Source: Malachius bipustulatus | Taxonomy: Eukaryota > Arthropoda > Insecta > Coleoptera > Melyridae | Length of the DNA: 64,000 bases | Assembly: GCA_910589415.1 (NCBI GenBank) | Contig: OU342632.1 | Location: 41,839,341 to 41,903,340 of the forward strand | Direction: 5' to 3' | Notes under the pieces: model-generated | What the model saw: the letters and a program-made list of their open reading frames with translations, nothing else | Database searches by the model: none | What the model was told of the DNA's origin: nothing | Position numbers and translations under genes: made by a program | Shown: positions 8,379 to 62,054 of the stretch, in pieces | Numbering within the stretch: position 1 is the stretch's first letter | Layout: every line of letters starts with the position of its first letter

Positions 8379-8585
8379 ATGGAAAAAGTCCAGGTGCGAA
8401 AGGACATTCCTTTCGAGATCCGCCTCGCGCCCAAGCACTCCGACACTGAGGTGTGCTTTGTGTGCGGTAGTAACAGTCACCAGCAGTCTTATTTGGTCAA
8501 CACTAGGCCGGATCCCAATGAAAAGGATTCCAAGGAACCGTATTTTCCTTTCTTGGCGTCACATGAACCACCAAATGGATATACG
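8379..8585 (+). CDS. GSE1: GSE1 exon 2: start codon and first half of module A
   Basis: The acceptor TTATGTTGCAG ends at 8361, and the ATG follows in a good context (CACCATGG). The exon encodes residues 1-69, with C26-F-V-C29 followed by PYFPFL, the first cysteine pair and central motif of module A. Donor ACG|GTAAGG, phase 0. An overlapping frame from 8353 is a shadow and lacks the motif. Confidence 0.85.
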
Positions 8586-11500
8586 GTAAGGTGCAGACTT
8601 CAGTGGCCAGTAATTTAAGTATAATAATAAAAGTATACAGGGTGATCAGTAACTCGTGCACTCGGAGCGTGCTGCGGTAAACTTCACTTTTTAAGAGTGG
8701 TAAATTTTCTTACTCCAGTGTTGTACGTTCTCTTCTTCCAAAGATATGACCATTTTTGTAAAAAAAAGGTGACAACACTCTCGGCAACACTACACTGAAC
8801 ATGTGAATAAGTTCGGGTTAGATGGTATTGTTATTATTATTTTTTCCATAGCAACGAGGACATTTGAATATTTTATATTCTCAGTTGAGTTTAGGCGGTT
8901 GCCAAACTTCAAATTTCGTTCAGTTTTAGGTATTTCATTAATTTCCAACATTCTCAATTCCTCTGCAAAGAGCAGGTTTTGTGGAAAAAAAAATTGATGA
9001 ATTATATGGTATCCGTTCCTGACATTACAGTAAACTGAATTTTTCATTAATCTTTTTCACGGTTATTGAAAAAATTACCTTTAAACTCGAATGAGGGACA
9101 CTCTGTAACTTGAAAACCAACCGTTGGATTCAATTTTTTTTTTTGCAGAATATCCTCAATTTTAATGGGCTCTATATCGTCCTGTATTCGGAGTGCACGA
9201 GTTACTGATCACCCTGTAGATTCTTGATTACCTACATTACATAAAGAGAATGGGCAATGAAAAATCAGCTGATTTCACCTGGTATAATCTGGAAGTTTTT
9301 GTAAATTAACTATGAAAATAAGTTTTGACAGTGAATGTCAGCCAGGCTATCTCTTTTTAACTTTCTTTTGGCCGATTTGACCTGCAGAAATTGTCAAATT
9401 TCCATAAATTTAATTATTCAAAATATCATAAATAATTATCAAACATGAAAATGCCAGAAATATTGACCAAAGAAACTGAAATTGGTGTAGAAAATGCCTT
9501 CGTTGCTTGAATGTAGCTATAATGCAGTAAATTATCTGTAATAATACTACAGTAATAATTTCAAATTTTTTGAGATATTTATTGGGGTAGGTAAGTAGGT
9601 ATTCATGAGATAATTATTATTGTATGGAAATTATTTGATTAAGTATAAATGAATGTGTCCAATTCGAAATGTGGCGTAAATAAAAAAAAAACACAGACAA
9701 GTATAGGTACTCACCTAGGTAATATTCACAGGAATAAATTATAAAAAATTGGATCTTATTTTGGGAATGTTCAGGTGTATTTATTATAATCTAACCGTAG
9801 GTACTACAATATTAGAAGTACCGTATTCCAAACATATACTACAGATGGGAAAGGATGCACTTTAAACAGATGTGACAAGAAATGATTCAAATTTAAACAA
9901 TTATTGGGAGAATTTGATTATTAATCTGAGAATGATATTATCACAAACACTAATAACCTAGAACCTTTACACTTGTCAGTGTGCTGTAAAATTTATGATA
10001 CGGGGTTGATCATTCTCATAATCCATAGCCAACTTGATCCAAATTAAGTTGAAATGTACTATAGTTGCGCTCATAACATTTTCTGATGATTGATTGTAGC
10101 TCTCAGTTGCAGAAACTTTATATTTACTTCACTTTTTTGTGACATAATTACTGATTTTTAAATGCCCTGTATTGTCAAAATTTTGTTCTAACCTGATATT
10201 GCGAAAAGTATTCTACTCCCTTTTAGAAAAGGTACTTACTGATTTATTTTTATTCACCATATTGTCATAATATGCATTTTAAAATCAATAATTATGTGAA
10301 GTTTTATTTCATTTCTGCAATGTGTAATGGTGTGCAACTTAATTTTTGTGCTTTAATTTTTGGCAACCTAAAAAAACCTAAATCCTTAATCCCAGTATCA
10401 CTGGGTCGTATTATTCTCCTCCTATTAAAAGTTAGAGACTGTCGTTAAGCCTTTATTTTTAACCTATGATTTCCCTTTCATCAAGCAGTTGGAGAGTGTC
10501 AGTAGTGATTATTCTTAAATAATATTTAAGACAACGGAGGGTGATGTTTAAAAAACTCATTACACTTTGACAGTTAAAAATTTCAGAATAAAACTAATCA
10601 ATGACTTAGATAAAGACGCCTTAGTGAATTTTTTAACGAAAGGGAAATCATACGGCCCACTCTCATTAGTTCATTAGTACTTACAAATTTGCACTTCATT
10701 TTCTTTACCAGTTTAAAAAAAAATTAATTTTAGAATAAACAGACCACATTTTCATTATTTTCACAAATTTTTTGAAGTTAAAGCGTAATCTAAAATGGAC
10801 ACAGGAATTATTCACAAGAATCCTGTTATTTATTTGCTCCTAATGTTCCAGATGATGTAGTTGTGTGTAATTTGTTTATTTCCACTGAAACTGTAGTGAA
10901 ACACACATCAATTGGTTTATTGGTCGACCTGCAGAGTAAATGAAACTATTATAAATGATGTGGGATGAACATAGTCCAAACAAGTTCCTACACTTTGCCC
11001 ATTGTTTTATTTTGACTTTGACATTTGTTTATTTTTTGCTATATCGCTACCATTAATTAGCTTAAGTACGTTATTGTTCTTAAAATAATAAAAAAGGTCT
11101 GAACTTTCCCCACCAATGCGATCATCTAAACTTTCAACAGACTACATGCTGAAACTTAACCCCAAGCACGATTTAATGAACCTATTCGTTCTATCATGTA
11201 TTGTGTAATAATGTAAATTACGTTTTGGATATAATTTTCTACTCCGATGAAGCACGGTTCCAGCTGCTGGGTAAGTTGATTCACAGTATTATAGAGCACT
11301 GGTCATCAGAAATAAATTCATCACAATTTTAGTAAATATGTTTGTTTAATAAAAAAATGCATTGTCAAGGTAACCAATTTTTTATCCACTAGTTTCTCTC
11401 GTTAGGTTAAACGGCCACAGCTTATCAGCATTAAATCGCACCATGTTTAACTTTTTTAACTTAATTTTACAAAAAATTTAACATAATAACAGCAGTTGCC

Positions 11501-14500
11501 ATAACAATAATAATTATTACATATCTAAGAGCTTAATAAAGTTTAAACATAGAAATGAATCAGTGCCTTCATTTTTCTTTACAGCTGAGAACGGACACGG
11601 GTACTGTAGCCACATGCTACTTGTGCTATGTCGTCTTGCATCAGCAGTGGAACGGCTACGAGACTACCAAACGTCCCCACATGGAACGTCTATACTGGAT
11701 GAAGCGTGTGGACAACGGGCCCTACACAGGTGCCGACATGGGAGTGCAGGGCGAGTACGCTGCCCAGGTACTGGGAATCGGTACCGAATGCAGCAGTAGC
11801 AGTAGGCCGGGGATCAAGGAAGAAATGGCCGCACCTCCTGTACCTCAAGCGACAATGCAACAGGTAAGAGTTTGAGTATTTCAAAACCTCCCTGTAGTAA
11901 GTTACAGTTTTTTCTCGTGGTTTTCCTTTTTTTGACAATTGCTTTTCACAGTATCTCAAATGATTTTCTTATTTTTCTATCTATCAATCAATTGCTCTTT
12001 GTGTCAAATTACTTTAACTTTATATCAATTGCTTTTCCTATTTACATGCAGTGCGATTATTATAAACATTGGAAAAGCATTTGGTATGAAAGGATCTAAT
12101 TTGACAAAAGAGGAATTTGATTTGAAAAAATCACACTGACGTTTGATAAATCATTTGACAAATTTGGAAACACAATAATAATTGACAAAAGACAAAAACT
12201 AAAAAAGAAAGACTGTATTTTAAGAAAATTGGTTCCCACTCCAAATTCTCCTGCAGTATGTAATCGAATCAGTGTGGAAACAAATGAAGGAAATCTTTTT
12301 GCAAAACAGGTTGTCCACATGCTGAAGCTGAAGAAAAAATAATATTGTTACGGGTCTCACAATTATAAAATCACCACCACTGAAGTTTGCAAATTCCTTT
12401 ATTAACTAACCAAAGTACAACTTATAACCTCTAAATCTAAATAATCAATAAACACAGCTGTCATCTTGTCTCCACTCACAGATATTACACCACTTGTCTA
12501 TTCTTTACAATCCGCTATATCACTAGTCACTACTGGCTTCCTTACTTCAGACTTCACTTCCACTTTCCAGTAACTACGACTCTGTCTTCCTTACTATACT
12601 TCAGCTTTCACTTTCACGTCCAAGATACTCTACTACTACTAGAGTGCCGACAGTTCCGCTTTTATAGCATGGTCGTGGATTATGGAAATGTCAGATTGTT
12701 CGGCGAGACCACTCTAGTATTTAATAGAACGCACAACTGTCCGTCAATGTGTCATGCGTCGAATTGTCGTGAAACTGTCATTGTCTTTTTGGGCCAAACC
12801 ATTACAAAAAAAATGTAAACAAACAAAATGGTGAAACTGGAATTTCTAAGAACAACTAATAGAATTTTTCGAGAGTGGTCTCGTTATACTATGTTGTTTA
12901 TTTGTTCATTAGTTCATTTGCATAATGTACCTACTGTAGTAATTAGATTTGTAGATAGGGGGTGATTATTTTATTTAAGGTAGTTTATGGTAGGTCATTT
13001 GATCAGCATTAATGTTTGTCAAATTTATTTTTACATTTTATTTAGCTTTTGGAATGTTCTGGTATGCTTTTAGTCCCAGTTAATTATCTATGAAAATTAT
13101 GGGCATGAATTTTTCGAACCTGGTCTAAAAATACCAACGAACAAGCTCTTGATTGTTGGGTAATTATAATAATTGGAGCCCTTCTTCACATTCTTCACTC
13201 CACCAACATTAAACAACAGATCTTGATTGTTGTTTAAACTTTTTTGAAGTGAACCTCGAACTTTGCCAAACGATTTCCGAACAATAGTTTCAATTTTCAA
13301 CAGTCATTTGAATTGAATTTTTGGAAAAAAAATGAAGGAAGACATTTATTAAAGCGTTGATTAGTTTTTTTTTTATATAAATATAATTATGACTTTTCTC
13401 CAGTATAAAACTGAATATTGAAAACAAATTATCCCTTTTCAGTTCAAGCATAATTCAACTTAACCTTTGAATATTTTCCACTTTCATTTTCAAGTTTAAT
13501 AAGTCTTCTGGATTACAGAATTTTTTTCATTAGAAAATATAAATTACATCATGAATGAAAATATTATAACGAAGGAACGAGGAACACTAGAAAAAATATT
13601 CTGGATTCGTGTTTGTTTACCTTCTACAACATTTATGATGACTCAGATGATTGATTATGTCACCTTCGTGATAGTTCTAGTGACATGACAGAAATGACAT
13701 ATTCTACATTCTACTAAATGCCAGAAGGGTTCCGCGTTCTCCGATCTAGACTTCACGGGCCAACGGGTATATAATAAAAGCTGTCGGCATTCTAGCAGTC
13801 AGTTGTGATTTAAAGTGGAAGACTGAAGTAGAAAACAGAGTGAAGTGAAAGAGTATAGTTGTGTTGAAGTGATATCTGTGTGTAAATAAGAGAAAAGCTG
13901 ATTATTTAGATTTGGAGATTATTTTTATGAGTTATAATAGTTGTGTTAAAGAATAAATAATTTTGTAAGACTTTTAGTTTGTGAATTAATAAAGTGTAAG
14001 ACCCGTAACAATATTTATATTTTTCTGACGGACACCAGAATCCAAGCCTTGATCGTAGTGCCATTACAACAAAAAAACAAACTCGAGCTCATTCTAACCT
14101 TGTCACAGGCTTAGGCTTACAATAAATTTATCAGGTTCTCAGCACGATACTAAGAAAGAAATAAAACAAGTTAATAATGATGAACAAAAACTTTCTTTCG
14201 TTCGAGGTGTGGGAGTGTACTCACCACAATTTCAGCAAATATACACAAACTACCAGAGACAGGGAGTATCTGGATCTGCACTTGCTTAATATCAGTCAAA
14301 AAAAGAAAAGAACATTTTTTTTGCTATATTTTTTTTATTTGAAGCCCGTTGTGGATTTAAAAGTGCCATAGTATTTAATTCTCCATCAAGACGTTGCAAC
14401 GATTCTAAAATTATCCAAATTCTTCTCCCCATTTCCTCTTCTATTCTTCTATTCCTCATAACACAATTCAAACTTGGGAATGACTTGTCAGATTTTAGGA

Positions 14501-17500
14501 AGATTTAGAAAGATTTTAGGAAGATTTAGATAGATTTTAGGAAGTATTAACTCGTGGCTGAAGCTTTCAAAATATTTATTCAAGAAATCAAATGTTTTAG
14601 AGACGATAAATGGGGCAAGGCGACACATATTTCAAGGTAGTCTCAAACATTGCATCCTTGAACCCTTAAAAAAATTGGTCGATATCGATTTTTTTATATT
14701 ATTGCAATAATTATGATTATTATATAAAATAGTCCTTTTCCATCTTAAAATATTTGATCTTATATGTATATTTTAAGGGATGAAGGATGAAATATTCAAT
14801 AATGACTTTAAATTTGAATACTGTTAAGTATATAATAACCCTGTATAATTTATAATGTTAAAAAGTGAGGCAATATTATAATACTAATTGTAGTGTTTCT
14901 GTTTCAAAGGGGGCAATTGGCAAATTTTGAAAAACACTTATTTGTAAATCAATAGCTTGCAATTACCATCACCGAATTTCTATAAAGGGGACAAGTGCCT
15001 TGCATTTATTATAATAATATTTACCAAGTTTCAATGTAATTTTTTTGACATTTTCATCAATCTCTCTGGAAGATGATTTTGGCATTTTGGAACGGCAACG
15101 CTACAATTTATTAACAACAAAACTTCAAGTTTTCATTAACAAAATTTACATTATTTAATTTCATGTTGCCAACTTAGCAAAGTGGAGCCACTTAGCTGCT
15201 TCTGGTCATTAGTAAGAAACAGTTCTGATGTTATATCCCATAGAATTAGGTTCATTATTTTGAAATTACATTACGTATTTGCTGGTATCAAGCAACAAAT
15301 TACTCAGATTAGGATTTTGTAATTTTTGGTTGTAATAAAAGTTTGTTCTTAAGTTTAAAAGTACCAATACCAAATTATTAATCATTAGTAAGCCTAATCC
15401 TTGAAATGAAAAATGAAGTGTTTTGACAAGTTAAATTAAGAAAAAATTTGATGAAATAAATTATATGAGGGGAAATGTATTGATAAGTTATTAGGAGCTC
15501 AATTTTAATTCAAAATCCATTAAAAATACTTCTTTCTTCCTTTAATTATAAGAAAACGATGAAGATATCAGTTTTTGTTTACCTAATATCCAGAATCTAA
15601 ACGATAACAAACTAAAAATAAACCAATAAATTAAAATAATTAATTCTTAATTTATTAGTAATGGAAAATTTTGTACCGCCAAGCAAAAATCCATATATCA
15701 TTATATAATTAAAAATTGTTTTGGATGTATGTAGTATGTACCTTACCTACATAATTAAGTTGCTGCATATGCATTATGTATCTATGTATGTATTTACCTT
15801 TAATAGAGAGACAAAAATAGAATCCCATTAATATATGTAGATGTACCGCTTTTTATATAATGCTTATTTACTCTTGTTATACCTTATGTGACTGTTAGTA
15901 GTAAGGTAGACATTTTTAGCAATCAACCCAAAAAAAACAAATCCCTTGTTAAACAAAGCAGGTTTCTTGATTGTTTCATTTTTTGTTTATTTATGTAATG
16001 TATTTTGTAGTTAGTCTGGTTTTAACTAGATTTCGAAGAAAATGTAAATAGCTACTTGTTTTGTATGTTTGAATGAGAATTCTGAACCTAATGCTCTTTT
16101 AATCCTTTAATGGTCATTTTTGCAAGGAATGAAATGAGCAACTTTTGCAAGTGCTTGTTCATTGTTCAATAACAAAGTTACAATAGCATTGGATAATTTA
16201 GATTTTACAGAATCAATTTCTTTATCTCAAATGACACTTGACATTGGTTTATTTGATTTTCGAATTTTCCTTATTTTGCTTTAATGATCTATTTATTGTT
16301 TCCTAAAGTTGTCTTACTTTTAATCATAAAATTTCATCAGTATATAATATACGAGTATCCTCGAACAAATATTTGGTTAAGTTCGAGGTTGATTTTTTCG
16401 GTATTTGATTATGACGTCCGTCCGACATCACAGTAATATCTAATCATTATATTTATTTCGTACCAGTACAGATTGGTATTTGTGTAATTATTAATCTAAT
16501 TAATGTCGACTGATGAATTAATTACCATAACTCCTATCTTAGTAATATATTTACTTCTGATTAGATTATTTGACTTTATATCTGTGCAACTCTCTGCTGA
16601 TGTCTGGTCATTTATCGTTCTCTACTATACCAGTGTTCATATTCATGATGTGAAATATATTGTCTGCACTTTTGTGAAATCACAACTGTTCGTTCAGTTA
16701 CTAATTGCTAATTAGTAGTGTGAGCAAAAGTTATTTTTATGATTTATTATTTCATATGTGTGTGTTTGGTGATTTGATCGGATAAATTGATCTATTTCGT
16801 TTAGTAAAAAAGTGATGACTGTTGAAGGACCGCAGTATTATTTCGTAAGTAGTGTTGAACATCATAATGTCTGGATTTTAATCTTGTTAATGGTCGTAGA
16901 TAAGTCATTTTGTAGTTGAACACAGTAGTTTAAGTTTTACATGACAAACTGTGGTTCTGGCGATAACGCTGACTTTATGTTAAAGGTCGATACGTTAAAA
17001 ATAATGAACGTTATCTGGAAGGTTTTCAAAATTTTATATTTTTCGCCTGATTTGTTATTATTGTCATAAGCGTTATCGGTAATTTATTTCTTTGCATTTA
17101 GAATTGGAAATATAATTATTCCACCAATCCAACAACAGATTTATAATTTTAAAACCTGCCTCGATGGCCATGATTCTCGATTCTTGTTGAAAATGGGACA
17201 AAAAATGAATATGCAAAATTGAATAATAAATTAATTAATTCAAATATAATGGATGGTTTTATTATGGTTTTTTTATTATTATCCTGGGGAAATTTACAAT
17301 AACCAGTTTGAACTCATTCTTGTTTGTAAGGATGTGCATATTTCAGTTGAGTTGTCTTCGTTGTAGTGAGTTGAGTTGCATTTACGACCAAACTCTGTGA
17401 AGATCAGTTAGTGATTACTTTTTTTATGTTGTGGCACTATGACCCTTTGTTTCATTCATTTTATGAGTGTACTCCTGTAAGCATTTGTTTTTTCCCACCA

Positions 17501-20500
17501 TAAGTCGAATGTCATCGTAATTTCTTTTGCATACAGACATAAGAATTTGATTAATTCAAGATTGATAGAAATTACTAAAATGTCAAATGTTTTTCCTACA
17601 AATAATAATGTCAACTAATGACTCAACTAATTGCTAATTGAAGTCATTGATTTTGCTTTTGCAAAAAATGGGAATATACCTTTCCAAAACTTTTGACTGA
17701 TTTAACCATGGAATATTATTGCATCTCATTATGGTTTTTCTTAGTAAAGATTGTATTATTATTGGTCTTATTTAGCTATTATTTAATTATTACAAGAATA
17801 TATTGAATATCATGCTTATATGGTGTCCCTCAGGGATCCACATTGAGACCTCTGTTTATTGTAATTTGAAGTAGCACCGCAATTTTTGATTTTCAAGTAA
17901 AAAAATATGTACTGAAATGCGTCCGAGATGTGCTGTTATGTGCTTCACTTGAAAAAATCTAAGAGTATGGTTTTTATAGGCCTCATTTTCCGCGAAGTTA
18001 GTTCAATCCTTTTTTTCTCTTGAAAGCGTAACTTGTGCTAGAATGTCTGGTTGTTTTTCTCTGTCTATGGCACATGTCAGCACAACTTGCTTTAAAAAAA
18101 GGGTGGTGGCTAACTTGGCAAAAAAGTGTTACCCTATTTAAATCTCACCATTAGTTTTTTTTTTAATGGAGTACATGATAGCACATCTCAGGAACATCGT
18201 AGCTCATTTTTTAAATTAAAAATCCAAAATGGTTTTGCTAATTTCATGCACATGTAGGTGCCTATGCTATTTAATGTCAACTGACTAAAAAACTTTATTG
18301 AAGATCTTGAGAAAAATCTATTTGAGATTCCAGATCTAAGCCAAAAGTGAGATATAAATTGCTGAAGCTTCCATAGCACAGTACCCATATAATTATACAG
18401 ATAACCTAATATTAAAAAACAAAATGGGCATTTGAGGGATAACAAAACATAATTTATAGTAATTTATAGTCGGTTAAATTTAAAATTGAGTACCTATAGG
18501 AAGTTCATTTATTTGAAATAGTTTTAGATCACATTATTGCGAAGTATTAAGGTTTATTTGTAAATTATTCAGTTACTCATTGTAAAAGTGATGAATTTAA
18601 TACTAGGTACTTAGAAAGTAAACAATCTAGTTGAAATTAAAATAAAGAGTGTAGGTGTACTTGAAATTTGTAGTAAAGGGATCGATCGACATTCTAGTTA
18701 ATACTAGTCGAGTCATTTATCTAAGTCTATAAATTCAAGGAAAAAATACTAGAAAGATAAATCTGATTAAGGGGATTTGTAGCTTATGATTACCTATGTA
18801 CCTACTTACTTTTTTAATTGATTTGTTGTAAGTGTGTATTTTTTGACATACTTAAGAAGCAGTTAATTGTTAATTTTTAATCCTGACAGCTGACAGCATA
18901 ATTAATAACATACCAGCATCAATATCTACGTAACATGTATAATAAGTTATTTAGTAACAACTTATAAAATTATAATATTATAATGACAATCAATTTGTTG
19001 TTATTTGACTTATTTGAGTACTTTTTTATTATAAAATACAATATTTCTAAAAGTTCCACATTTATTTTATTTAGATAAAACAAATAATATCTAATGAAAT
19101 GACCGACATTTTTTCTTGCTTGCAAAAATTGAATATACGTGAGCTAATAATCTGTAGCAATGAGTTAGTTTAAAAAAAGAAAACTGTAAAGCTATGATTA
19201 AATTTGGTTTTTCATGTTCAGAAGAGGGTAACAATAACAGGGTGTCCAAGAAATTGGAGAAACGTTGCCTGTTTTTTTTTTGTGCTTGCTGAAATATACT
19301 GCCAATACTAAACATTATATATTTCTTATTAAAGCCACTCCTTTTCTATTATTGAAAATAAAAAAATATATTTTTTTAAGCTTACATAAGTCGTCATGAG
19401 TCATCCATTTGGTATTTCAAAAATTTTCAAAGTCAGCTAGATCCCAGGGATTTGATAGGCAATTTTTGTTTTTCCTATGGTCCCCATATTGCGAGCCATA
19501 TTGTTTTTTCATGTTATTCGAAATAAAAAATCAAGAAAAACAAAAATTGACTATTGAAACTCTGGAATGAAAAGAATTTTAATTTTTCAATAATAGAAAA
19601 AATATGGCAAAAAAAGAAATCTCGTTTTTTTAGTTCTTTAAGCATATTCCAGCAAGACTGAATTTATTCTAAATTTCTCTTCATATTAATTATCAGCACA
19701 ACTTTGTGTATATCTTAAGATAACCGAGATCCCCATGGATTATGTCTAAAAACCCTGTATACAATCATTATTGTTCGGGGATAGTAAAAAGGGCCCACTA
19801 TTCATTGCTTGTACAACACTCCCAAAAAAAAAAATAGTTTACAAGAAATACAAATATCTAAACATCACACAATTTCTGCTAGATTTATCAGTTATTATTT
19901 GTTATTTTTTTTTACATTTTACATTTTTTACTTATTCTGTAAAACGTGTATTTGGTTGACCCCTTTATAAGGGCTGTATCTCGAAAAGGGTGCCTCTTTG
20001 GCCATTGATAATTTCGGTTAAAATATTTTTTATTCGGGACTCTGTGGTAGAGCTTTGGTGGTACCTTTTAGCGACACTGTATAGGATGACTGATTTAATT
20101 ACTCGTGTAGGAATTTTTTTCTTCCGTCTTTATAAGTTGAGATATTCAAGTGAACAGGTAAAATTGATTAAAAGATTAGATAATATTTCCGTGGTAATCC
20201 TATATTATGAGCTTGTGAGTCATAATAATTAGATATTATACGCTTGTTTCCTAGTGTACTTTGGTATTCTAGAATCGGGTAAAACCTTTTATTAATAATT
20301 GATATTAACATTTGATATTTTAATTGGTAGTCATTGCATTCTGTCCTTATATTTGAGAAAGGTATTTTATGTAATTTTGCTCATCTTGCAAATAATCAAA
20401 GTTTAAAGTTTAAATGGAAATATTTACTTGGTGACTTCTGGATTCTGTCATTAGTTTGTGAAACTACTGAAACTAGTTATTTATATTTATGCAAATGAAT

Positions 20501-23500
20501 TTTATTTATAGAACAAATACAATATTTTACTTAATTATGCGATATCAGCTGACTGGTTAGTTGGAAGACTCATTAATTTTACAGTACCAGTGTGAAATAA
20601 CTCATGATTATTGCATTATTTTTATCTTTAATTACCCCCTTGTTAGTGTTTTGTAAGTAAATAATTACGGACTTCTTTTTCGAAAACAAAGTCCATTAAA
20701 GCAACAACATAAAATGAATAAACATTTTTTTTTTATTAAAGAGAGTTTCTAATAACTTGCCTGTTACAGGTTGCAAATAACATTCAAGAGAAAGAAATGA
20801 TACCAGAACGGGCTCTGGACTTGACGCATCCTCAATCTTTATCAACCCCGACGACGACGACTTCAATTCCGGTCCACCACAACACCAATTCGAATTCTTC
20901 TACGGGAACCGACATCCTCGACTTAAGCATGCCGGACAAGAACTCTGTGACGGAAGTCTGCTACGTTTGCGGCGACGAGTTCAAAAGAGGCAGTCTCGGC
21001 CTCATCGCCGCCAAGTATCAGAGCGACGACAGCTTCCAGTACCAACCGTTTTTTCCCAGTCTCATCAAACACCCGCGTCCCAGTCGATCGAGACCGATGG
21101 ACTCGACCGGTAAAGTCCAAGCGTGCACCGACTGCCAGAAACATCTAATAAGTCAATGGGAGGTGTTCCAGGAACAGCAGGTACCTCATTCGGATCGAAA
21201 TTACACCCTTCGGAAGAGGCAGATAGCCACCGACGACACTACATCCTTCACTTGTTACACCTGTGCCTTGGAGTACCCATCCAGTTGCGTACGATTGCTG
21301 TACTGTTGTCCTAATGCCGAGAAAGAACCGTATTTCCCTTTCATTAAAATGATCAATCCACCCCCCGGCGCCAGTCCGATCAGTCCTCAGGGGATGGTGC
21401 AAGTGTGCGTGCTGTGTTATAAGTCGGTACCCCAGAAACACGACGTCTATGGGGGTGATCCTAATGTGCTTATAAATAATAACGTGAGTGGTAACGATGT
21501 GCAATATCATAACAGTAGTTCATCTCGGCATAGTACAGCACGATCGCCCGTTAACAGTACCAATTCGGATATAAGATACAAACCTTATGACATGAGTTCC
21601 GGTAGTATTGCCAATAAGAAGAAACAGGCCGCCCTGGATGGTAGAAATATGAAGGTGAGTGCCTATTTTGTTGGGTTTTATCAATGTTATCGGATGAGAA
21701 TTGACTTATTTTGATATGGGATAAAACTGTGGGTTATTCAGTTTCGTTTTAAGGCAGTTCCTTGACAGATTTATTTCAGTTTTTGATGCATTTCCGTCAA
21801 TTCTTAATTGATGTAGTGTACTATAAGGACGATTTTTTTTGTAACTTTACAAATTTGAAGGATTCAAATGTTTTTCGTCTTCACTAAGCTGAGTGTACAC
21901 ACACACAATATGGAATGCAGCATTAAATAATGATAAACTAGATGAGAGTTTCTTGAACCATGTGGGAAATGTCTATTTCACCTTGTTTTAAGTTCTGGCA
22001 TTGAAATTAAAAAAAAAAAAAATGATTCAGGGCTGATGGGTGGTCCCTTGTTCAATGTTCATTCATTTATTTCATGTTAAAATTCAACAAATCTTTAAAA
22101 TCTGATGTGTATGCTGGAGCACTGAAGTTCATATTCCTCTTCAATGATGTAGTTACAATAATGAAATATAAAAATATAAAATGTAATTAAAATTTATAAA
22201 TAAAATAAAATGGACGAGATGAGACCACCAATAAATGCAACCACAGCACCAAGACTCCCCCATCGTAATTTTGGAAATTCTTGTACAGTTTTATGAAGGA
22301 AGAAAAAAACATGACAAAATTTTTTAAATTCATTTTTAATTTTTTAAATTTCAATACAAGAACCTTGAAAAAACCCAAGGCAAAATAAAGATATTTTGAA
22401 TAATGATCAACTGACAGTGTTTCATCATTTCATTTATAAATGACAAAGGTGTTAAATACCATTGACTTTGCCATTAAAAGCCAAAGTGATTAAATGCCAG
22501 AGCAGCTCTCAGGAAGACATTTTCAGCATGAGTGCTTTTACTCATGGATAAATGACCAAACTGCCAGTTTGGGTCATAATTCTGAATCACCTGTGTAATC
22601 CTGTACAGGATAATTCAGTTCTAAATATGTAGTCAAACTCAACAGATAAATTATTTAATAATATTAATGAAACTCGAATCAAATATTTTAAATACAATTC
22701 AAAAAAAAATTTTTTATTCAGATGAAAAATTTCAAGGTCTCATTTTTTTAAATTTTATATACACTTATGCCCGGTTGCACGAACGTAATTAAAAACCTGT
22801 GAGATAATCATCGATTTGAAAACGCCCCGTATTATCAAAATATTGGTCTGATAGTGCTGGAAACAAACTCTACTCCCTTGTAGAAGAGTTAATTACCAAC
22901 AAAAATTAAAATATCCTTGAAAATATTCACCATATTTTCAAAATTTGAAATTTGAAATCGGTAATTATCTGAAATATTTTTATTACTTTTGTTCCGTCAT
23001 CATAGTTAATTTGATCGGTCAAAATTGAGACCTAATTGTGACGAACGATCGCTAAATTCATTTAATTCAACAAAATTTCGTTCGTCACCGCCAGACTTGG
23101 GGTTCAGAAAACAACACCCTACCTTTTACCCGCACACTCGCCCGCACATGAAGGAAGAAGGAAGAAACAAATACTTAACCAGCCGAAGTCGTGGCAGCAA
23201 GTCGCATTTTCGTGAGACGACCAAATCGGGTCGTGTCAATTGGATTTTGGTTACTCGTAATCGTCGAGTGAAATCGCATTTCGTGATACGACAAATCGTG
23301 TCGTATCAAATTCGTATAGTGAACTAAAAAGCCGCGCTTTACAACCGTGGCTTCTAATCGTTAAATTAAAGGGATTACCAACCCTCACAGCAGGAGACAG
23401 AAGCAGACCGAAGGTCAGTACCTATAATTATTCGAATTATTCATTGTGCAACCTATCTACTCCTGTTTCCTTCGGGGTTAATAGCCCTGGTCCTTCAGTC

Positions 23501-26500
23501 GTCAAACAACTTTTATGCAACAGGCCCTTAGTAGTTTGTCTCACCTTTTGGTCTTAGAGTCAAATCAGATTATTCTATTTTAATGTTTGAATTATTTCTG
23601 TTAAAGTTGAAAAATACTATTATGTTTAGGGCTGTTTTTTTTAAATTATACTAACTGGTTAACCGATGCTGTTAATCAACCATTAACCGGTTAAGCTTTT
23701 CAGTTTTCAGCAGTAAAAATGTGTCTGTTATTAATATAAAACCAGGCTGCTATATCCACGTCTATCATTGAGTTAACTGGGGTATTAAATCCAATACCAT
23801 TGCATTTGCTTGAAATTTCGGAAAGAGAAGAAGAGACCTAACAATGGCCAATTATGTGACCAATCAGGTTCTACTAATCAGTTTCTGGTTATCTCCATAT
23901 GAAAAGATTACCTTTTTAATTTCAAAATCACTACTTTATCATTCAACACCCGAATTTACCACTTCATATACAGGGTGTTTCGGTTTGTACGTTCATAATT
24001 CCGGCAAACGCTTTTTTATAAAGTTGTGCTCTAAAACGTTTTATTTTGGAGATAGAGTTGTTTTATTTTTTTAGCTGCTATATAATATGACCCCCCCTTC
24101 ATCTCGAAAGTAAAACGTTTTAGACCAAAACTTTATGGAAAAACAATTATTTTTACGTGGTCTACTGCTTGCCAGAATTATGGACATACAAACTAAAACT
24201 GTATAATGTGCAAGCGGCCATGGATTTGAGTGGATGAACTAGCTCCACGGTAGACAAGGAGATAGTAACCAATTTTGCTTTTTTATTAATGTTAAGACGA
24301 TTTCCACTAACACCATCAATACCACAATCATAAGAGAACATGACAACAATTCCCTCTCTTGAAGTGCGTTTCATACAAGGACACTAGGAGGGGATTTGCC
24401 AAATTGAATTCTCTCTCTCACAGGTTACTTGATATTTCTCTTAATTCTCCTTGAGATTTTATTATTATTATTATTTTAGCAGACTATAAAAAATAGGTCC
24501 AGTGGTCACAAACGGTTAACCGGTTAAAATCACAGCCTTAATTATTTTTGTGTCCAAGTTGTAAAAACACTTTTTTTATGGCAAAATGGTGCATCCAATG
24601 AAGACTTTATGAGAATTTGTTGAGTGGAAAAGGAAAACTAAATGAGCAATCCAGAAAAAGTGTAACTTTTTTATTCAGTCCAGTAACCACATATTTGTTT
24701 TATTCACAGTAATATATAATGATTTTATTTTATTTCACATAACAAAGTTGTATATTTATAATTAAAGTAAGATTATTTGTTGGAAATATTATGTCAAAAT
24801 GACTTTTTTCCTCAAAATGGCATTCGTCATCTGTGAAAGTTTGTCGGTGAGTTTGTAAATCACCCTGTATTTACTATTTACTGAATATTATTTTTAGGTG
24901 TGAGTCCAGCAGATTGAAAGTCAAGGAATCATTAATTACTGCTCTGCAAATATTTTCAATGCTCTAAAAGCACTGTTTATAAACATGCAGCTGAGATTGT
25001 TTTTAATTGATATTGTGGTGCCAGGACTGCCAGGTCTATAAAATGCATTAATTTTGAAGTGCTAATAAAAGATCAAATATTTAATCTATCCTTCAAAATC
25101 AACATTTAATTGGAAACCGCAATATGCTAGAATCTACAATTTTGTATTTTATAGGACAAATGATTATTTTTTAAATAATAATAAGCATTTACAGATCTGG
25201 TATTTACATTTTATTTTCCTAAAAATGAGAGAGATGCTATTGGTTAGTTACCTACTTGACCAAGCTGGTTAAAATTATTTGTGAATAGGGGAGTTAGTCT
25301 AATTTATTAAAAAAATTAAGTTACCAAACTATGAATTAATTTGTAAATTTATTAAATTTAGTGTAGCAGGTAACAGTATCAGAATTTTAACCATGTCTTG
25401 TGGGTATTTTCTGGGATGAGGATGAGATGCCTCAATTATATGAATGGCACATCAATTATTTCAGTTCAAAATTCAACTAATCAGTGAATTGTTTTTCGTT
25501 GACAATATGTTTCATGTTTTTTGTAATTATTTTGCTCTTTGCATCTTATATGTATAAGAGTTCAAGTCATTGGATTCTTAGGTGAGCTAATTTTCGTACA
25601 ATGTGTGCTCAAATTTACTAATAAATTACAAAAATGTAATCAAATGTGTAAGTATGAAATTATAATGGGACACGAATATCTCAATATCAAGTTCTTGTAT
25701 TAAACTACTGAACATACTAAAGATCTTTCTTTATCATTTTTAGCACTGGGGATTTTTCTAAAAATAAAAACAATATAGAAAATATGAAAGCTTCAGAACT
25801 GCTTCCCCCCCCCCCAAGGTTTTTGTCTTATTTTATTACAAACTTTTAACCCCTTTCAGCCCTCCCTGTCTCGTACGACCAGTCCGGCTCCGGACGTCAA
25901 TGGCCAGTCGAGTTCCACCCAGAGCTATCGCTGCTACATCTGCGCCGGTCTCTACCCTCGTCGGCAAATGGAATGGGTCAGCACCAGTCCGGAAGGGATG
26001 AATTCGCACGCCATGCATTTTCCGTGCCTCCGTTCGGTAGCGCGGACTTCCGAGAACACGTGCATGGACTCCCACGGGCGCGTGCTGACGTGCACAACCT
26101 GCGTCGACCATCTTGCCCGGCAGTGGGAGACCATGGAGGCCGAGAGAGTTCCACTCGAAAGGAGAAGGTCAGTTTCAGTAGAAAGAGGAATGTCATTTTA
26201 TTTTGCTATATTTGTGTCTTGTTTTTTTACTATACACTAAATTTTATTAATTTTTTTCAACAAAAAAGCAACAAAAAAATCTCCAATGGCATGATAATTT
26301 GACACAGTAACAATAAGAAGTAAAATTTAGACTTTGTGTGTATTGATGTCGGGCGTATAGATAAATCTCAGTAACAGTAACATTTGACAATAATTTTATT
26401 TATTAAACTTTTCTTTTTTTTATCCCCTAAACACTTTCCATATTTGTAGTCTTCCTCACAAAACACCCTGTGTAATAAAGAATATTATTCGTTTACAAAA

Positions 26501-29500
26501 TTATATTTTCAGGTATGATGTTCCCATACCGGATCCAAACAACATGAACGGGGAGAAACGAGTGGTGTCTCCGGCACTGTCGAATGCGACGAGCGCCGAT
26601 CGAGGGGTGTCGACAACGCCCGTCGGCAGCAGCATATACTGTTTCTTATGCGGCCTGCATTCCGAATTCACCTTGGCCAGAGTGATCTACAGCAGATCGA
26701 GAGGTATGAACTGCTCCCGACACTGATTGATCGAAGATTTTACTGAAACGAACCGTTATTCGCAGGTCGCAGTGCCCCTAATTTCCCGTTTATTGCCCGA
26801 CACAAGAGCCATCCGAATGCGGAACAGCTGAAAGATAACGGGTCCGCTCTTGTGTGCACTTTTTGTTACCACACGCTTGTGAATCAGTGGAGGCGTTACG
26901 AGGGTTTAGGTAACGCTGCGCCTAGTGCCGAAGACCGGGAGTACAATATCCGTGATTACTGCTGTCTGGTCTGTGGAATTACGACGTACAGGAAGAGAGT
27001 TAGAGCTCTGTTGATTAAGGTTAGGATTCGCTTTTAAAATAATAATTAGTTTTATTTATTGTACCTTGTACCTATGATTGTCTCACAAAAAAATGTTATC
27101 ACCACAACAAGAAGGCTTAAATTTTGTGAAATTCTATTGGTAGCTATATTGGGAGCAATTATTTCTTTGCGAATATTGTTGCACAGCTGTTTTCGTAACG
27201 AGAATTGTATTGACGTTGAAGATGATGCAATCGTAGAGTAAATGTCACCATACACATGTTGAGCTGCGTTTTAATAAAAGTTTGGAACAGAAGATATATT
27301 TTAATTAATAAAATCACTTCAAAACTTCCATTTGTTGTGTTAAATTATCTGTTGGAAAGTAACCTTGACTTTGTCTTACCATTATTATTAATTAATGTTT
27401 TCGGAATAATTACGATTTATTCCCACATATCCTTATAGGATGTTTCAACTCTTGCCGATATAAAATATCTCTCTCAGAACGATAACTCACGGGTGACTTC
27501 TTCACATCTAATGTTATCAAGAGTTTGCAACGGAAAAGACCAGGTCATGTATTAATAACCTCCACGAGAAAATTTTTATCAAGGTCTCCACAGATCATTT
27601 AAGATCCACTGACATTACGGGTAATTGCTAGATGTTTTTCGTATTTTATAGGCTTCGAACTGATTAATGTCGCATTCGATCTACATTGCTGATTACTCAG
27701 GAAAACAAAGCTACTTAGAAGCTGCTATATCTTGAATCTAAACATGGTTATTTTCAAAACATTGCTCTGTTGCAATGGTTTTGTTCCAAATTGATCAATA
27801 ATTGTGTAAATATAAATAGGTTGATTCGATAGGAAACTCCTATATTTGGGAGAACAGAACAGAATTGGTGTACCTAAATAAAGAAAGAATTTCTAATACA
27901 CCTCTATTGAGAGAAACAGGGTACTATGACCCCTTGAAAATATACCCCTGAACATGTTTTTATGGTGGATGGAAAAGAAGTAAAGTATTATAATAAGAGC
28001 GGGTGACTTCGAATAAATTTTTGATTTTTTTCCAACTATTTTGAAGGTTTATTTTGGAATAACAGACTATGAAAAAAGCATATATTATGAATATCTATAA
28101 CCTTTGCCTATATACTACAGTAAAACTTTTTGTGATAGCCCTTTATTTTAATTTTTGTTTAATTGTTATTTTCCGAAGCCGTCTTCAGTTTGCTGGTGAC
28201 TTCGGACATAAGGGAATGATCGGAAATGATGTCCAATCAACTTTGGACATCACTTTGACAAAAAAAATCTGTAGGAATTGAAAAAACAGCGTTTGCAAGA
28301 AAATTAACAATTTTTCAGTCATTTATTTATGCATACCATGTTCTTTAATCACTTTGGTGTTTTTTCGAGACTGAAAATCATTTGTTGTAGCTGCTCTTCC
28401 CACCTTTACATCAACACGTTTTTGCCTTGTTTTGGCTCTTGGCTCTAGTGTACTTGTTTCTTTTACGAAATCTACAATCGTTTTCTCCAGCAAATTATCC
28501 ATTCCATTTTCCGCGTTGTTCTGTAGACCTTTTGGGAGCCTGTTAAAACATTCTTGAGGATTTAACGGCCTTATTCAACATGCCCTGAATCCCGATGTAA
28601 CATTGTTCTTCGATGATACCTCTATGCCTTCTAGGGTTTTTCATAATAGCATTGGGAAATTTGACTTTTGAAATGAAGCTTTCTTTTTCATCTTAAACTC
28701 ACTCAATATGCTACGCTACTTCTTTTTAAGGAGTGCAAAATGGATTCAGTAGTCCAGTCTTTTAGGTACTAATTTTGTTAAATGTGACGAAAAACAAACT
28801 CAAAACTAAACTGGAATTTTAAACAATTAAATCCATGAAACCCCATTTGCCCCAATAATAAAAAATAAATGTTCACCACTGAGCAAAAGTTTATTGCGGA
28901 AGCTCGCAATTAAATGCACAGAGGGTAATAAACTGATGACTCAACCACACATCAACTAATAAGCATTAAACTGTAACAAAAATTTTGACTCAATAAATAT
29001 CACAAAATTATTTAATTGAATTGATGGTAGGGAAATGATTTTATACTTCGATAGCTTCTAGAAAGGTCCCTATCAAAACTGCTGACATAACTGGACGTGA
29101 AAGTTCCTCTCCTCGCTCTCAACGCTCTCTTTTCTAACCGGCTGTCAACATCAACCTATAGCCCCAGATCAAAATTGTTGGCAGTAGCTGACAACACTAA
29201 AAAAGCAATTTCAAGGGAGCGGCAAGCGGAAAAATTTACTGGAAACGTATAAGTGTCTGCTTAATTGCCGCTTCTCCGAAATGACTTTTTTTGGTAATGT
29301 CAGTTACTGCCAACAATTTTGATCTGGGACTTTAGTCTTCCTAAATCAACCTAACCTTTTCGTGTAACTTGAAATAAAAATTCTGTCACAAATACAGCTC
29401 AAATAATAAATAATTATTTTCACGGTAGGACATAGTACTATTATGGCACAAATCAATTCTGGAAACCCAAAACATCCTTGGTTTTATTAAAAAGAAATAC

Positions 29501-32500
29501 TTTACTGCTTTACTAATATAAATGAAATTAATTTTTTTTTATTAATACTCGTAATGACAAATAAAAACAAAAACATTACAACACCCTTCAGTTTGGACCC
29601 ATCTGAACAAAGTTTAGTAAATTTTATCACCTCATCTTCTTGAGCATAAAAAATATCAACAAAAATCTGCAAAATCTAATTCTAAGATCACCAGTTTCTC
29701 TGAGATATTGATAAAGAAACATTTTCGGTGGTATACTTTTTTAAGAAAGTATTGTTTTAAGAAATAATTACCCTGTACAGTGACCAATAAATACAAAACA
29801 TCTACAAACAGCAAAATATAATAAAACAATAAAACATTTTATAAAGCCTTAATAAAACAATCAAATTTAGAGATACATTTAGGAATAAGTACAGAATAAA
29901 TAGATAATAATTGAAGTGGTTGTCATGGTTACAAAAATGCATCATTTGTAGGATTTTCCATTCTTGAAGTTTCACCGACAACCAGAGAACGCTCTGTTAT
30001 TGGAGAACGGCGAGTTTGCTGTGGTTTGCCTTGACTGTTACGAAACTCTGCGAACTCAGAGTTTGGAGTACGAGCGATGGGGCCTGCCGGTGGACAAACG
30101 CCAGTACAACTGGATCACGCAGCCACCACCGCCAGAGGACAGTCCCGAGGTTACCGTTGCCAGGCTACCAAGCGGGCAAAGAAGTGATAAAGTGGTGAGT
30201 GATTAAGTCTATTTTTTATTTTCATGGACTCTCCCTAAGTCACAATTGAAGAGGAACGATTAAGTTGATTACGCGGTTATTTGTTACTTACTACATAGAA
30301 TAGTTGCTAAATTAATTTAAGGTTAATTCAAATAGTTTAGCTCTAAAAATATTAGCTTAGGTGTATTAGCTTTTTTTGCTCTAATTCCATATAAAAGTAG
30401 ACATTTTCTTTCAAAATATTGAAAATTGAAAATCTGCTGAAAGAGAATTGATGTAAAACAGGTACAGTGGAGTCTCAGTGAAGTTAATTCAAGTCTCATT
30501 AATTGGAACTTTCATAAAATCTGAGCCAAAAATACAATTTTCACTTTCTTAATTATTATTTTAAAAAAATATAATTTATAATAATTTGGATCTGATTATT
30601 ATTTAAACTGTTCACAACTATTATTGACCGTTTTATTTCTTTTGAAAGAAATAAATTTACCTTTTGGCACTTTTAATATGTATAATAATAATTATAACTT
30701 TGTGAATTTCCTGACTCAATTTAATTATTTGTCAAAGTCAAAAAAAAAGGGCGACCATATAAAATAATAAATACTTTTTAAAATTTGTGCAGGGGGTACC
30801 AACACTAACTGGACCGCAGTTTGGTGTTGGTAGCATGTCCACATAAATAAAAAAATTACTTTAGTTGTGTATTTAATTTGATTTTTTACTTCTTTTTTTA
30901 ATCTTCATATTTCTTTTACAGGTTCCTCCAAATTTTATCCCAAAAATAACGAGGAAGAGTTCTCCAAAAAGTATGGAGAAAAAAATCAACAAGGTCGATT
31001 CTAGTGGTAAGTTTAATTTTTTTCCCTGTTAGGAAGAATTCATTTTAATCTTGAGTGTACAAATGTCTGGATGATTTCTAGATAAAATCTCAATTATATT
31101 TTGTTGTTTTGACTTGCATGATTTTTTTTTTAAATTTTAATTTGTTGATTTTCTAAGTACAAGTTGTATTTGGTGACTCAAATGTTAGTAACATTTTTTT
31201 ATGAACAAAACTCATGGTTCTAAAAAAAAATTTACTTCAATCCCACTTGTTTTTGTTTCATTTGGTTGCATAATGAAGGTAAGGTATTATATAAAATAAT
31301 CACTAGGTTTTCAACTACGCTCTAATGTCTTTATTTCAAGAAGCCCTAAGCATTCTAAGCATGTGTGATTAAAATATTTCTTGTGTTATTTTACAAGGAA
31401 GAATTAGTATTATAGGCCTCCTTAAATTTCAGCTCTACATTATTTAATCTAATTATATCTCATTTTTATGAGGTGTTGTTTTGAAACTGACATTTTTATT
31501 AAAACCTCTTTATTTCTTATTTATGGTTCGCTTCAATTGAAATTAATATTTCGAAAAGGTCAGATATACTTTCTGATTTTACTGTTTTGCGTCTGCATTC
31601 AGTGTGCTATTTGTCATTTTCGCACTTGGTAGTTATATTTTTTAATATTTGAAAAATTAAAGGGCTTAGGAGCTTTTTCATTGTGAATTACCGGCCAATA
31701 TGGAGTTACTTGGTGAATTTTCTATTACAATATTCACATTATTTATTCAAAAATTATTATCAGTAAATTGAAAAATCAGGAGTAAAATGTTTTTCTCAGT
31801 TTCTGTAAACAAAATATTTTCTTTGATCCTTTAGTAGACAGCCAAATTATTGAGGTGTTTTTTTTTTTTTTAATTTGGACTCCCTCCTCGCCCTCAGGTG
31901 AATTTACCCTATGATTTTTTAAATAATTTAAGTAATTAGTAAATTAGACAATATTTTAATATTGTCTATCCCCAGACTTGATTTTGCAATTCAAATTGTT
32001 ATCTGTTATAATAAAATGCAGGATATGGATTTTATTCTCTTAATAAAAAATTTGAGGCCCTTTAAGTGAGATTTTGCAGGACCTCCTCCCCCGTTTTGAA
32101 CTTACATAATGAACCCACGCTTACAATATACCTGCCATATGATATGATGATGTACATATCGAAAGTAAGTGGTAAAATTTTCCTCGATTACAGTCATTAA
32201 CTGGAAAGTTGCGGCAGGTTCTTGTTGGTATTGTATACGAATTCTACCATATGTAAGAAGATCTGTCTACCGTTATTTTATTGTTTGTAATCAATTTCAT
32301 TCTCGGCACACGTCGAGTGAGATTGTGTCGGTCTGAAATATGGACTCAACGTTCATGAGAGTGGGCTATCTCAGATCGTAAGCACAGAACTAGAAGTGAC
32401 TAGAACAGCCAATAGCCACACAAATAAAAACAGTGAGCGTTTTCCAGCCGTCTTTTCCAATTACAAGCTAATCAAATCAATGTAACACTCAACAACGGCA

Positions 32501-35500: not shown

Positions 35501-38500
35501 TAGCAAATATGACGAGAAGTTATTAAAAAAAAGCTGTTTAGAATCAACATTTAGGCCTCTATACCAAATTTCAAATTATCGGCCAACAATGATTTTTTTT
35601 TAGATAGCCGTCAAATAATGTTGACATTTTTCCATCAATATGCGAATTAAAAATGGCACATTATTTCTCTCTATTTGTCAGCGTGCGTGAAGTATTTCGC
35701 GACCTAGAGCGACAATTATTTTGTGCACAACACAACATAAGATTTGTATAGAAATCTTGTACATACTTGTTTCCCTAGCAACAAAGCAACAATAAACTTG
35801 GAACTAAATTAAAAATTTTCCTGCGTCATTTTTATGATTTTAATTTCGATTTTTTCGCTTAGGTATCTATAATCTGTCTAAAAATTTTTGTATGCAACTC
35901 GGGCGCGAAATTATGGTGCTTTCGAATGAGTTTTTGTCTTGGCTTTTGCCTCAGCAAAAAGTTTTCATTCTCAAGCTAAGTACATAGGTATACTTAGTAT
36001 AAATTAAATTAAATTAGTATAGATACTTGTTTATGTTTATTTCACAAATCCAAGAATTTTATTTAGGTAAAACTTATTAAATTATTCAAAAATATTGGCC
36101 CATTGATTTGAAATTTTCTATTTTGTCTGAATGTTGAACAATTTTTTTATAACATTTCGTTATATTTGCTACATAGAAGGAAGTTCACTCACATACATAA
36201 AAGAAGTTTTTTTATGTGAAAATTTCCAATGCATACTTTATTTTTTAAAATTAATAATATGTTAGCAATTAGTCTTTAACCAAGCACCCCAAAATTAATA
36301 ATTTAGGTTGAACCCCAAAAATAATAATGCAAATTAGAAATGCATATCTTTTATAAGAGTTGTTTCACCTATCCGGGAACACACTGTAGATAATTCCCGT
36401 TAAATTTTGCTATTTTTACCTAAAAAAGTCTTGAAATAATTACAAAAAATCCTTAAAACTGACAATTATTTTGGTTGTGAGAGCGAAAAGACATCCCAGG
36501 ACGAAATTATCGCCAAGTATATTTTTTAGCATATTTTTTTGGAAATTAAAAAATTAATTTTATAATTGAAATCAACATTTAAATTTTGCCTGCATCCACA
36601 CATATATTTATAATACTCGTATTATTTATTTTACGCATTTTTTTGCGATTTTTTCCCGGATTCTCGTTCCATTCCCCGACGATCCTCTGTTTAAATCACC
36701 CAGTATAACGGTGCAAATCACGTCCGGTTGACGGATTATCACCGCCGCGGCCATCCCCGTGGGCGGGGGCCGCAAAATCAAGTATCGCGGGTCGGCGGCT
36801 TGGGGCTGCGCTTGTCAATAAACGCCTCTTTGCGGTGTCACACGCCCAGCGCCCCCGCCGCCCCACCGGAGACTGCTGACAAATTCGCCGTGTTGCCGCA
36901 TTAGACGCTTTAGGTATAAATTTGGGGTTTGATTATTGGCTAGTGACTTTTTTCAATTTATCTGTAGGGTTTCGAATTTTTTTTTGTAAAATCGTGTGAT
37001 ATCATAATTATTAGTCTCATTATTTTTTTTATGTGGGTACAGAGTGTTCCTTAATGTCATGTCAATACTAAAGGAGGTATTTTAGAAATGAAAGACCATA
37101 TGTCTAAACAAAGTAGGTACCATAATTTGGATTCGATTTTAGGCTACTGATAATTATTTAGATGAGAGCCTGTTTTCAAAATTTTTGCCCACAAATAATC
37201 CGTTTCTTGTGCACATTTTAAAAATCACGGTCAATTTTGTGCAAAAGAATGAAGAAAAAACAGCGGTGCCCCGGTGTAGGTACTATTTTTCCTCCAAAAG
37301 TATTCGGTTTTGATTGCCGTTTTTTTTGAGCGTAAAATTGGCAAAAAAAATACATTCAGCATGTGCCAGTTTACAGTAGTAGAGTAAGTTTTAACATTTT
37401 TGTGATCATGTTGCATTACAAAAAACTTGCATTGGTTCCTACGTTGTGGAATATATTGCAAACGGTGCGTCCTATACAACAAAAACGTAAAATTACTTCT
37501 CTATACAAAACGGGGTATCTACAAAAAATATCAAATTTGCATTAAAAGCAGTGGCGTAAAAATTATTTAGAAAAAAAGATAACGACATACCCAGATCTCC
37601 GCCACTGGATTGAATAATGTTTCTTTGGGAACATCAAGTCCATAAATATTCAAAATTAATAAAAATCATCGAGGAAGGCTGATTTATTTTTTATGAAAAC
37701 AGACCTTAAAACTCGAGTGGTGCAACAAAATTTGTAAATATTGACAAGTCAGTATCGATTTACGGGCTCGGAGGCCGTTAGCGCGATTGTTTTGTGACCA
37801 CCACTTTACCCACAAAATACTTTTTAAGCTGGCTTTGGAGTTTATTTTTTTATTTTTTATTTAATGTCAATAGTTAGTTCCAAAAATACCTATTAGGTGT
37901 TCCTTTCAACAAATTTGCTACAAAATTCGATTTTAAGGACAAGTTTCGCTTGCAATCAAATTCATATGGCACCATTAGAATTTGGGGCAAGCACTGCGAG
38001 TCCCTAATCAAACCTCAAAGCTTCTCAATAGCGTAGCTAAGCTACATCGTCGCGGGCCTAGATTAAAGTTTTTTGCGTGCCCCCCATAAATTTCTCGCGG
38101 GTCCCTCATATTTCGTGACCTTCTTGTCCGCTCTAAAAAGGCGGAGTTATTTTTTTTAACTTTAAAAGTCCTGTTGCCGTGACTATGAAGAAGTGCCAGT
38201 GGCGTAGCATTCGTTGGCAACATTTTACGAACCCCCATCAGATATTTACCTGAATATTGTTTTAAAAACGTAGACTGTTTCCCCTGAATCCTCGGAACCA
38301 CTTCATAGATACGCCACTGGTGACGATCCCGACTTCTGCATACGGCCTCATAACATTACCTAATGGAGTGATTAAGAGTTCTGTCAAATAAACCAAAATT
38401 GGTGGTTAAAAATTATTAGGGATTTATTTACTGTCAGGCTAGAGACTTTCGTCTTTAAAATCTGGCATCATCGCCCTCTCCTCTCGTCCGCTCGCTATAC

Positions 38501-58313: not shown

Positions 58314-58526
58314 TTAACAGAGCTCTTGTCTAAATTCGCCGGGTAAGTAAAGCTTCTGCACGTGAACCACGCCCGTCCTGCATAAAGGACAGCTCTCACA
58401 TCTTGCCGAACAAGTCGTGCAGGAGACCATGTGACCGCAAGGGAGAAACACCGCATCGATTTGCTGGTCCATGCAGATCTTACAAGTCATCGCTTCCACA
58501 AGCCTTTTCAGTCTTTCTTGTGAATT
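58314..58526 (-). CDS. dnr1: dnr1-like last exon: RING finger
   Basis: 70 codons and TAA (58314-58316). After NSQERLKRLVEAMT come C-K-I-C, then L-P-C-G-H, S-C-T-T-C and C-P-L-C: the eight C3HC4 ligands of a RING-HC domain, all present. The tail VVHVQKLYLPGEF matches the VEHVQHVYLP tail of MYLIP. Acceptor ATTGTTTCAG. The preceding intron is 103 bases. Confidence 0.93.
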   Translation of the reverse strand, partial: NSQERLKRLVEAMTCKICMDQQIDAVFLPCGHMVSCTTCSARCESCPLCRTGVVHVQKLYLPGEFRQELC

Positions 58527-60801: not shown

Positions 60802-62054
60802 CTGTAACAATAATAAGACATTATAAATTAGAAATATTTAGAAGAATTTGAAAATTTAAAAGTATTTTGTTTTGAAAGTTTATTTATAAAATCGTGTTCC
60901 CAGTTTCAGGGGGGAGGGGGGGGGGGGTTCATATAATTTTCTTATATAATATATTTCACCAAAAATAATAGAATCTGGTCTACAAAGTTTAGTGCCTGTA
61001 ATTTTCCCCAAATTAATTTTTTTATCGCTCAGTGCTGCAGAAAAAAATTAATTTTTTGGTGGTAAATTGAACAATAAAATATTCTATAATATTTTAAATG
61101 TATTATATTTAAAATATAATAAATAGCTAAAAAGATTCATAATCGATTGCATTAGTTTAGGTTTAATTTGATACGTTGAAATGGCAAGAATTCTAAAAAA
61201 AAAGTCCTTCGCAACGTTAATTTCCTGTGGACAGGACACCTTTGAAAGTTGACACCCCATAGAAACAATTTTTGCAACACAAACGCGTTCTAGTAATAAA
61301 GGTATAGGTATAGCTATAACGTCAATATTTCCCAACTTCTCAGCAATTTCCTTGTAACAACATTTACTCAACAACTTCATTTTTATTAGTTTCCCCAATT
61401 TTCCGACTGTTTTGCAATCGCTGACGAGGTCCGTAGGTAGGTCCCCTTTCTGCTTCCCCCTCTCAGTAACACTCTAGCTGGTGAAACAAAGCAATTGATG
61501 AAGCGAGAACTCAACTTATATAAATGGACTTTGAACGGTTGGAAAGGACCTTGGACTCTGCAATGGAATCTCCAAGCAGGGAATTGCTCGGTTTCTCCGT
61601 ATAGCAGACATTCCTATTACTACTACTACTAAGCAGCTTAAGGTACGTCATGTTAAATGATGCAACAATTAATATATCAATATGTAATGTTTAATGGTGA
61701 TTTAATCATCTAATCGACCAAATCAAAACCACACCTGGTAGGCATGATCAATGTTCAACTGTTTCGATTAAAAAAGCTACAAGAAATAATTAGGTATCAT
61801 TTAACGATAAAAAATCAATTAAAAAAAGAAAACGATTGCAGTAATTTTACATGGTATAGCAGTAAAAATAAATAAAAACATTTAATCATGCAGGGAGTAG
61901 GTAGTAATAAAGTAATTAAATTGGAAATATGAACAAAGTAAAACAAAAACTTACTGGAACTGGATATTACTGTCGTGACACTGAAGGAATAAAATTGAAA
62001 AGACGTGAAGAGAATAATAAATAAACCATGAGTAGTGATGTAGAAAAAAGACTG

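Follow-up and report, generated by a model that had tools for sequence, protein, structure and literature searches.

Human GSE1 binds CoREST, HDAC1/2 and LSD1, is required for the binding of USP22 to CoREST and has been proposed to act as a scaffold for USP22 (PMC10681733). Drosophila Plexus is described as a protein of the nuclear matrix that regulates wing development (PMC8864742). Its mutation (px) increases rhomboid expression (PMC5004906), and both cysteine-rich motifs and “Q/QREKE motifs” have been described within this one protein (PMC13322080, citing Matakatsu 1999). In a 2021 paper, plexus was listed as having no direct human homolog or ortholog (PMC8864742). We analyzed a 64,000-nucleotide stretch of the genome of the beetle Malachius bipustulatus (contig OU342632.1; hereafter referred to as the window), in which an initial annotation had described six tandem C-x2-C...C-x2-C modules fused to a GSE1 co-repressor protein. 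We consider it reasonably probable, although with some reserve, that the gene concerned is the ortholog of plexus, that plexus is the arthropod GSE1, and that the modules are zinc domains used for docking on a CoREST-type co-repressor.

The cysteine-module array and its conservation

The array forms the N-terminal third of a 2,326-residue frame (8379–55109, forward strand) obtained by joining 16 exons with GT..AG borders and matching phases; the borders were picked by eye, so the phase agreement is partly a matter of choice. The modules are about 76–90 residues each. Their C-x2-C pairs start at residues 26/80, 226/281, 324/375, 482/535, 603/654 and 690/734 of the joined protein, with 50, 51, 47, 49, 47 and 40 residues between the paired motifs of modules 1 to 6, respectively, and the positions and gaps initially given for them were all reproduced in the rebuilt frame. 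Alignment of the window copies showed the four cysteines and an F-P step to be invariant in all six modules. The other marks attributed to the repeat were found by eye to be only partly shared: G-x-V, three residues ahead of the second cysteine pair, is present in four of the six modules (module 5 has G-S-A and module 6 G-E-F), Q-W in four (not in modules 3 and 6) and R-x-Y in five (not in module 3).

Two such cysteine pairs occurred in 2 of 10,000 shuffles of residues 1–760, and never more, against the six observed. Profile hidden Markov models (HMMs), each built from five modules, gave the module left out 65.3, 66.1, 49.7, 55.3, 56.9 and 32.8 bits (modules 1 to 6), whereas the control maxima for the same HMMs were 10.8–19.9 bits for shuffles keeping the cysteines (996–1,000 scored per module) and 5.7–12.0 bits for free shuffles. 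With 33–66 bits against at most 19.9, the proposal of a single repeat family is upheld, and the modules are supported as a real family in which the Cys4 pattern is invariant. A six-frame search of the window with the six-module profile recovered these six, complete or in halves, with no further match at E < 0.3.

A related array was found in a second animal sequence, CALHGQ010000039.1 (hereafter referred to as L001), from a record titled uncultured bacterium; of 24 pattern matches in a contig scan with modules 2–3, it alone encodes a relative. Its frame, from position 73, encodes modules 1–5 in a single exon, together with module 6 as far as its midpoint, with independent E-values from the profile of 8e-15 to 3e-26 for modules 1–5 and 4e-6 for the half of module 6. 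As these modules are in the same order as in the window, the array is conserved. The L001 frame has a GC content of 64% up to position 2745; the sequence GTAAGA, which we read as a splice donor, comes next, between two codons, and beyond it GC content falls to 34.5%. The donor lies 19 residues from the first cysteine of module 6 both in L001 and in exon 7 of the window. The apparent donor, in a spliced gene of animal type, indicates that L001 is a eukaryotic contaminant in the bacterial-titled record. The identity between the window and L001 is 60% for modules 2–3 and 53% for the exon 7 region, from midway through module 5 to midway through module 6. Five of the six window modules scored best against their own L001 counterpart, the exception being module 4, and the duplications therefore mostly predate the split of the two animals. 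In both sequences, module 3 is without Q-W and R-x-Y, and it therefore looks like a subtype rather than a product of decay. L001 stops short of the GSE1 part, and is thus informative on the array and not on the fusion.

The exons encoding the array, and the linker that follows it, are arranged as follows:

8379–8585, forward strand: exon 2, the first coding exon found, with an ATG in CACCATGG context; opening half of module 1, including the C-x2-C of residues 26–29; profile match, E 1e-15
11585–11863, forward strand: exon 3, completing module 1 with its second C-x2-C (residues 80–83), then linker; profile match
20770–21654, forward strand: exon 4, linker (containing two LDL[ST] motifs), then modules 2 and 3; profile match
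about 20938–21207, forward strand: module 2 (residues 219–308), in exon 4
about 21232–21483, forward strand: module 3 (residues 317–400), in exon 4
25860–26167, forward strand: exon 5, module 4 (residues 475–560); profile match
26513–26703, forward strand: exon 6, opening half of module 5; profile match
26704–26765, forward strand: intron between exons 6 and 7, 62 bp
26766–27019, forward strand: exon 7, remaining half of module 5 and opening half of module 6; profile match
29952–30194, forward strand: exon 8, remaining half of module 6; profile match
30922–31006, forward strand: exon 9, linker, with a phase-1 donor; followed by intron 9 (16,955 bp)

No in-frame stop was seen on reading the stretch between the acceptor and the ATG of exon 2, and the coding start may therefore lie further upstream. 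Directly after this exon, two 38-nt inverted repeats (8629–8666 and 9188–9225; 521 nt apart, 89% complementary) look like the ends of a small terminal-inverted-repeat transposon. The two LDL[ST] motifs upstream of module 2 are located at 20812–20826 and 20914–20928, with such motifs at residues 274 and 317 of the L001 frame; they resemble CtBP-binding motifs.

Predicted fold and comparison with known domain families

Sequence searches with the modules gave no match at E 0.001 in Pfam, NCBIfam or the PDB; the initial failure to recognize them as a named domain thus agrees with the Pfam profiles at this threshold. Structure prediction for a single module, as initially suggested, yielded a confident AlphaFold2 model for module 2 (predicted local distance difference test score, pLDDT, of 86). 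The model has strands at residues 14–16, 23–25, 29–33 and 68–72 and a helix at 73–88, with the cysteines at 17/20 and 72/75; both pairs sit at strand and helix ends, the second at the strand-helix junction. This order of elements fits a treble-clef-like arrangement, with weak structural matches. The zinc-finger associated domains (ZADs; zf-AD, PF07776) were among these matches, together with the HNH nickase 4h9d, the FYVE domain 2yw8 and ribosomal zinc proteins, the zinc-site arrangement of which weakly resembles that of the modules.

ZADs, which homodimerize, share their Cys4 spacing with the modules in addition to this weak resemblance in fold, and the modules might be divergent members of that family. 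However, no similarity was found between them at the sequence or profile level. The zf-AD profile was not reported for any of the six modules at E up to 10 (HMMER filters discard most matches above 0.1), whereas two ZAD queries, one of them a made-up consensus, scored 81.8 and 58.9 bits. Profile-profile comparison of the modules with solved ZADs gave probabilities of 0.2–0.7%, against 50% for ZAD with ZAD (halves of a four-sequence set) and 98.7 and 99.8% for module with module. ZAD proteins characteristically carry C2H2 zinc fingers as well, but none were reported for residues 1–1065 and 1831–2326 (E up to 10) or in the frames of exons 13, 14 and 16 (E up to 0.01). We consider a ZAD origin to be decidedly improbable.

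The binding of zinc is itself something that we infer, and the cysteines might instead form disulfides or a structural core. This possibility seems very remote, given that the C-x2-C pairs are invariant across the six window copies, that the second pair is predicted to lie at a strand-helix junction and that the protein would be nuclear if it is Plexus. The module represents an unnamed, probably zinc-binding family.

Continuity with GSE1 and likeness to Plexus

Beyond intron 9, the joined frame continues through the following features:

47962–48183, 48354–48522, 48573–48767 and 48833–49479, forward strand: exons 10–13, N-terminal GSE1-type region
48948–48962, forward strand: literal QREKE motif, in a Q/R/E-rich stretch
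50725–52512, 52590–52814, 53216–54298 and 54910–55109, forward strand: exons 14–17, long linker, DUF3736 region, C-terminal tail and stop
52377–52814, forward strand: DUF3736 (PF12540), running from the last part of exon 14 across exon 15

The spliced piece from exons 14–15 matched DUF3736 with 52.5 bits, well over the cut-off of 22.6, across profile positions 31–141 of 142; the exon 14 frame alone scored 24.6 bits. We take PF12540 to be the GSE1 family, and the sequence SFAAALR at residue 857, in the N-terminal GSE1-type region, and the C-terminal tail presumably also reflect a resemblance to human GSE1. The window protein differs from this CoREST-associated co-repressor in having about 760 extra N-terminal residues of cysteine modules; vertebrate GSE1 is not known to have such an array. 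In the long linker encoded by exon 14, degenerate 45-nt repeats were observed at 51012–51365, with a repeated peptide spotted there by eye.

The literal QREKE motif begins at residue 1052, and both kinds of motif reported for Plexus are thus present in the window protein. For this reason, we take the window gene to be the plexus ortholog, and Plexus to be the arthropod GSE1. The orthology is very probable on the basis of a description of kinds of motif rather than an alignment. The initial interpretation, which made no mention of Plexus, is supported in part: the module has no Pfam match at E 0.001, but the cysteine-rich motifs of Plexus are already in print (PMC13322080), and the array is not, therefore, unknown biology. 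Four papers naming GSE1, plexus and Drosophila together were recovered by a whole-word search of the open PMC literature, all unrelated as judged from titles and the beginnings of abstracts.

The phases and the published description of Plexus support the view that the modules and the DUF3736 protein form one in-frame gene. The asserted fusion thus holds as regards in-frame continuity with DUF3736 and the agreement in phase, with borders chosen by eye. Two transcription units might exist instead, with exons 2–9 constituting a short gene or isoform of their own, a GSE1 promoter within intron 9 and the fusion an artefact of joining. CpG is raised at 36001–46000, within this intron, with observed/expected ratios of 0.98–1.75 across all ten 1-kb bins, versus mostly 0.35–0.85 in the bins of other long introns (two exceptions, at 16 kb and 23 kb, exceed 1); beyond 38 kb, GC content is higher as well, other than at 39–40 kb. 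Unspliced read-through after exon 8 or exon 9, also in favor of two units, stops at the fourth or ninth codon. However, the GTAAGT donor of exon 9 and the acceptor of exon 10 are both in phase 1, an agreement with a one-in-three probability by chance, and the first AATAAA past exon 9 lies about 1 kb downstream. A narrow scan of intron 9 (an ATG no more than 600 bases from a donor of the form GT[AG]AGT and of matching phase) recovered only an unspliced extension of exon 10, and published Plexus holds both motif types in one protein. Two units are, in our view, improbable. Two considerations nevertheless leave some doubt about the single gene that we prefer: the CpG-rich stretch at 36–46 kb might be an internal GSE1 promoter, or an insertion, and the splice across the 16,955-bp intron is deduced from phase and the description of Plexus.

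Intron 9 also contains an open reading frame (43363–43683, reverse strand) that appears transposase-like by eye, with no Pfam match at E 0.01. Downstream of the gene, at 58314–60837 on the reverse strand, matches to FERM_N, FERM_M, FERM_C and RING are probably pieces of one neighboring gene, which we presume to be MYLIP- or dnr1-like.

Proposed role of the array

In the mechanism that we envisage, each module would be a compact treble-clef-like zinc finger, predicted or presumed, consisting of one cysteine knuckle followed by a beta hairpin, a turn at F-P and another cysteine knuckle from which a helix starts, usually with L-x2-Q-W. The array would act as a multivalent protein-docking platform holding sequence-specific repressors or nuclear-matrix partners, and the GSE1-type remainder of the protein would recruit a complex of the CoREST-LSD1-HDAC type, such that targets, including vein genes, would be silenced. 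Plexus would then act through the machinery that human GSE1 uses for gene silencing. By its title, Matakatsu's 1999 paper is said to present Plexus as a nuclear matrix repressor of wing veins.

The modules might, alternatively, read chromatin or DNA directly, by binding histone tails or nucleic acid. They are part of a probable chromatin co-repressor, and nucleic-acid binders (the HNH nuclease and ribosomal zinc proteins) figure among the weak structural matches. The modules are, however, near neutral (pI 5.0–8.9), which argues against a strongly basic DNA-binding array and makes protein docking the better fit. We regard direct reading as unlikely, but as less so than the other alternatives considered above.

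Returning to docking, we put forward tentatively, and with less assurance than the reading given at the outset, a more specific proposal: Plexus may be the arthropod GSE1, its modules constituting a new, old and order-conserved treble-clef zinc family that provides multivalent docking for one CoREST/LSD1/HDAC sub-complex in arthropods, with vertebrate GSE1 having kept the core without the array. The valuable and testable part of these findings is the tie between Plexus and GSE1. If true, it would connect a gene long studied in wing venation to a co-repressor of humans. Naming the module would make its annotation in genomes possible, and raises the question of whether vertebrates lost it. If Plexus is GSE1, then wing-vein repression in the fly and the human GSE1-CoREST-HDAC1-LSD1-USP22 complex would become a single question, open to fly genetics.

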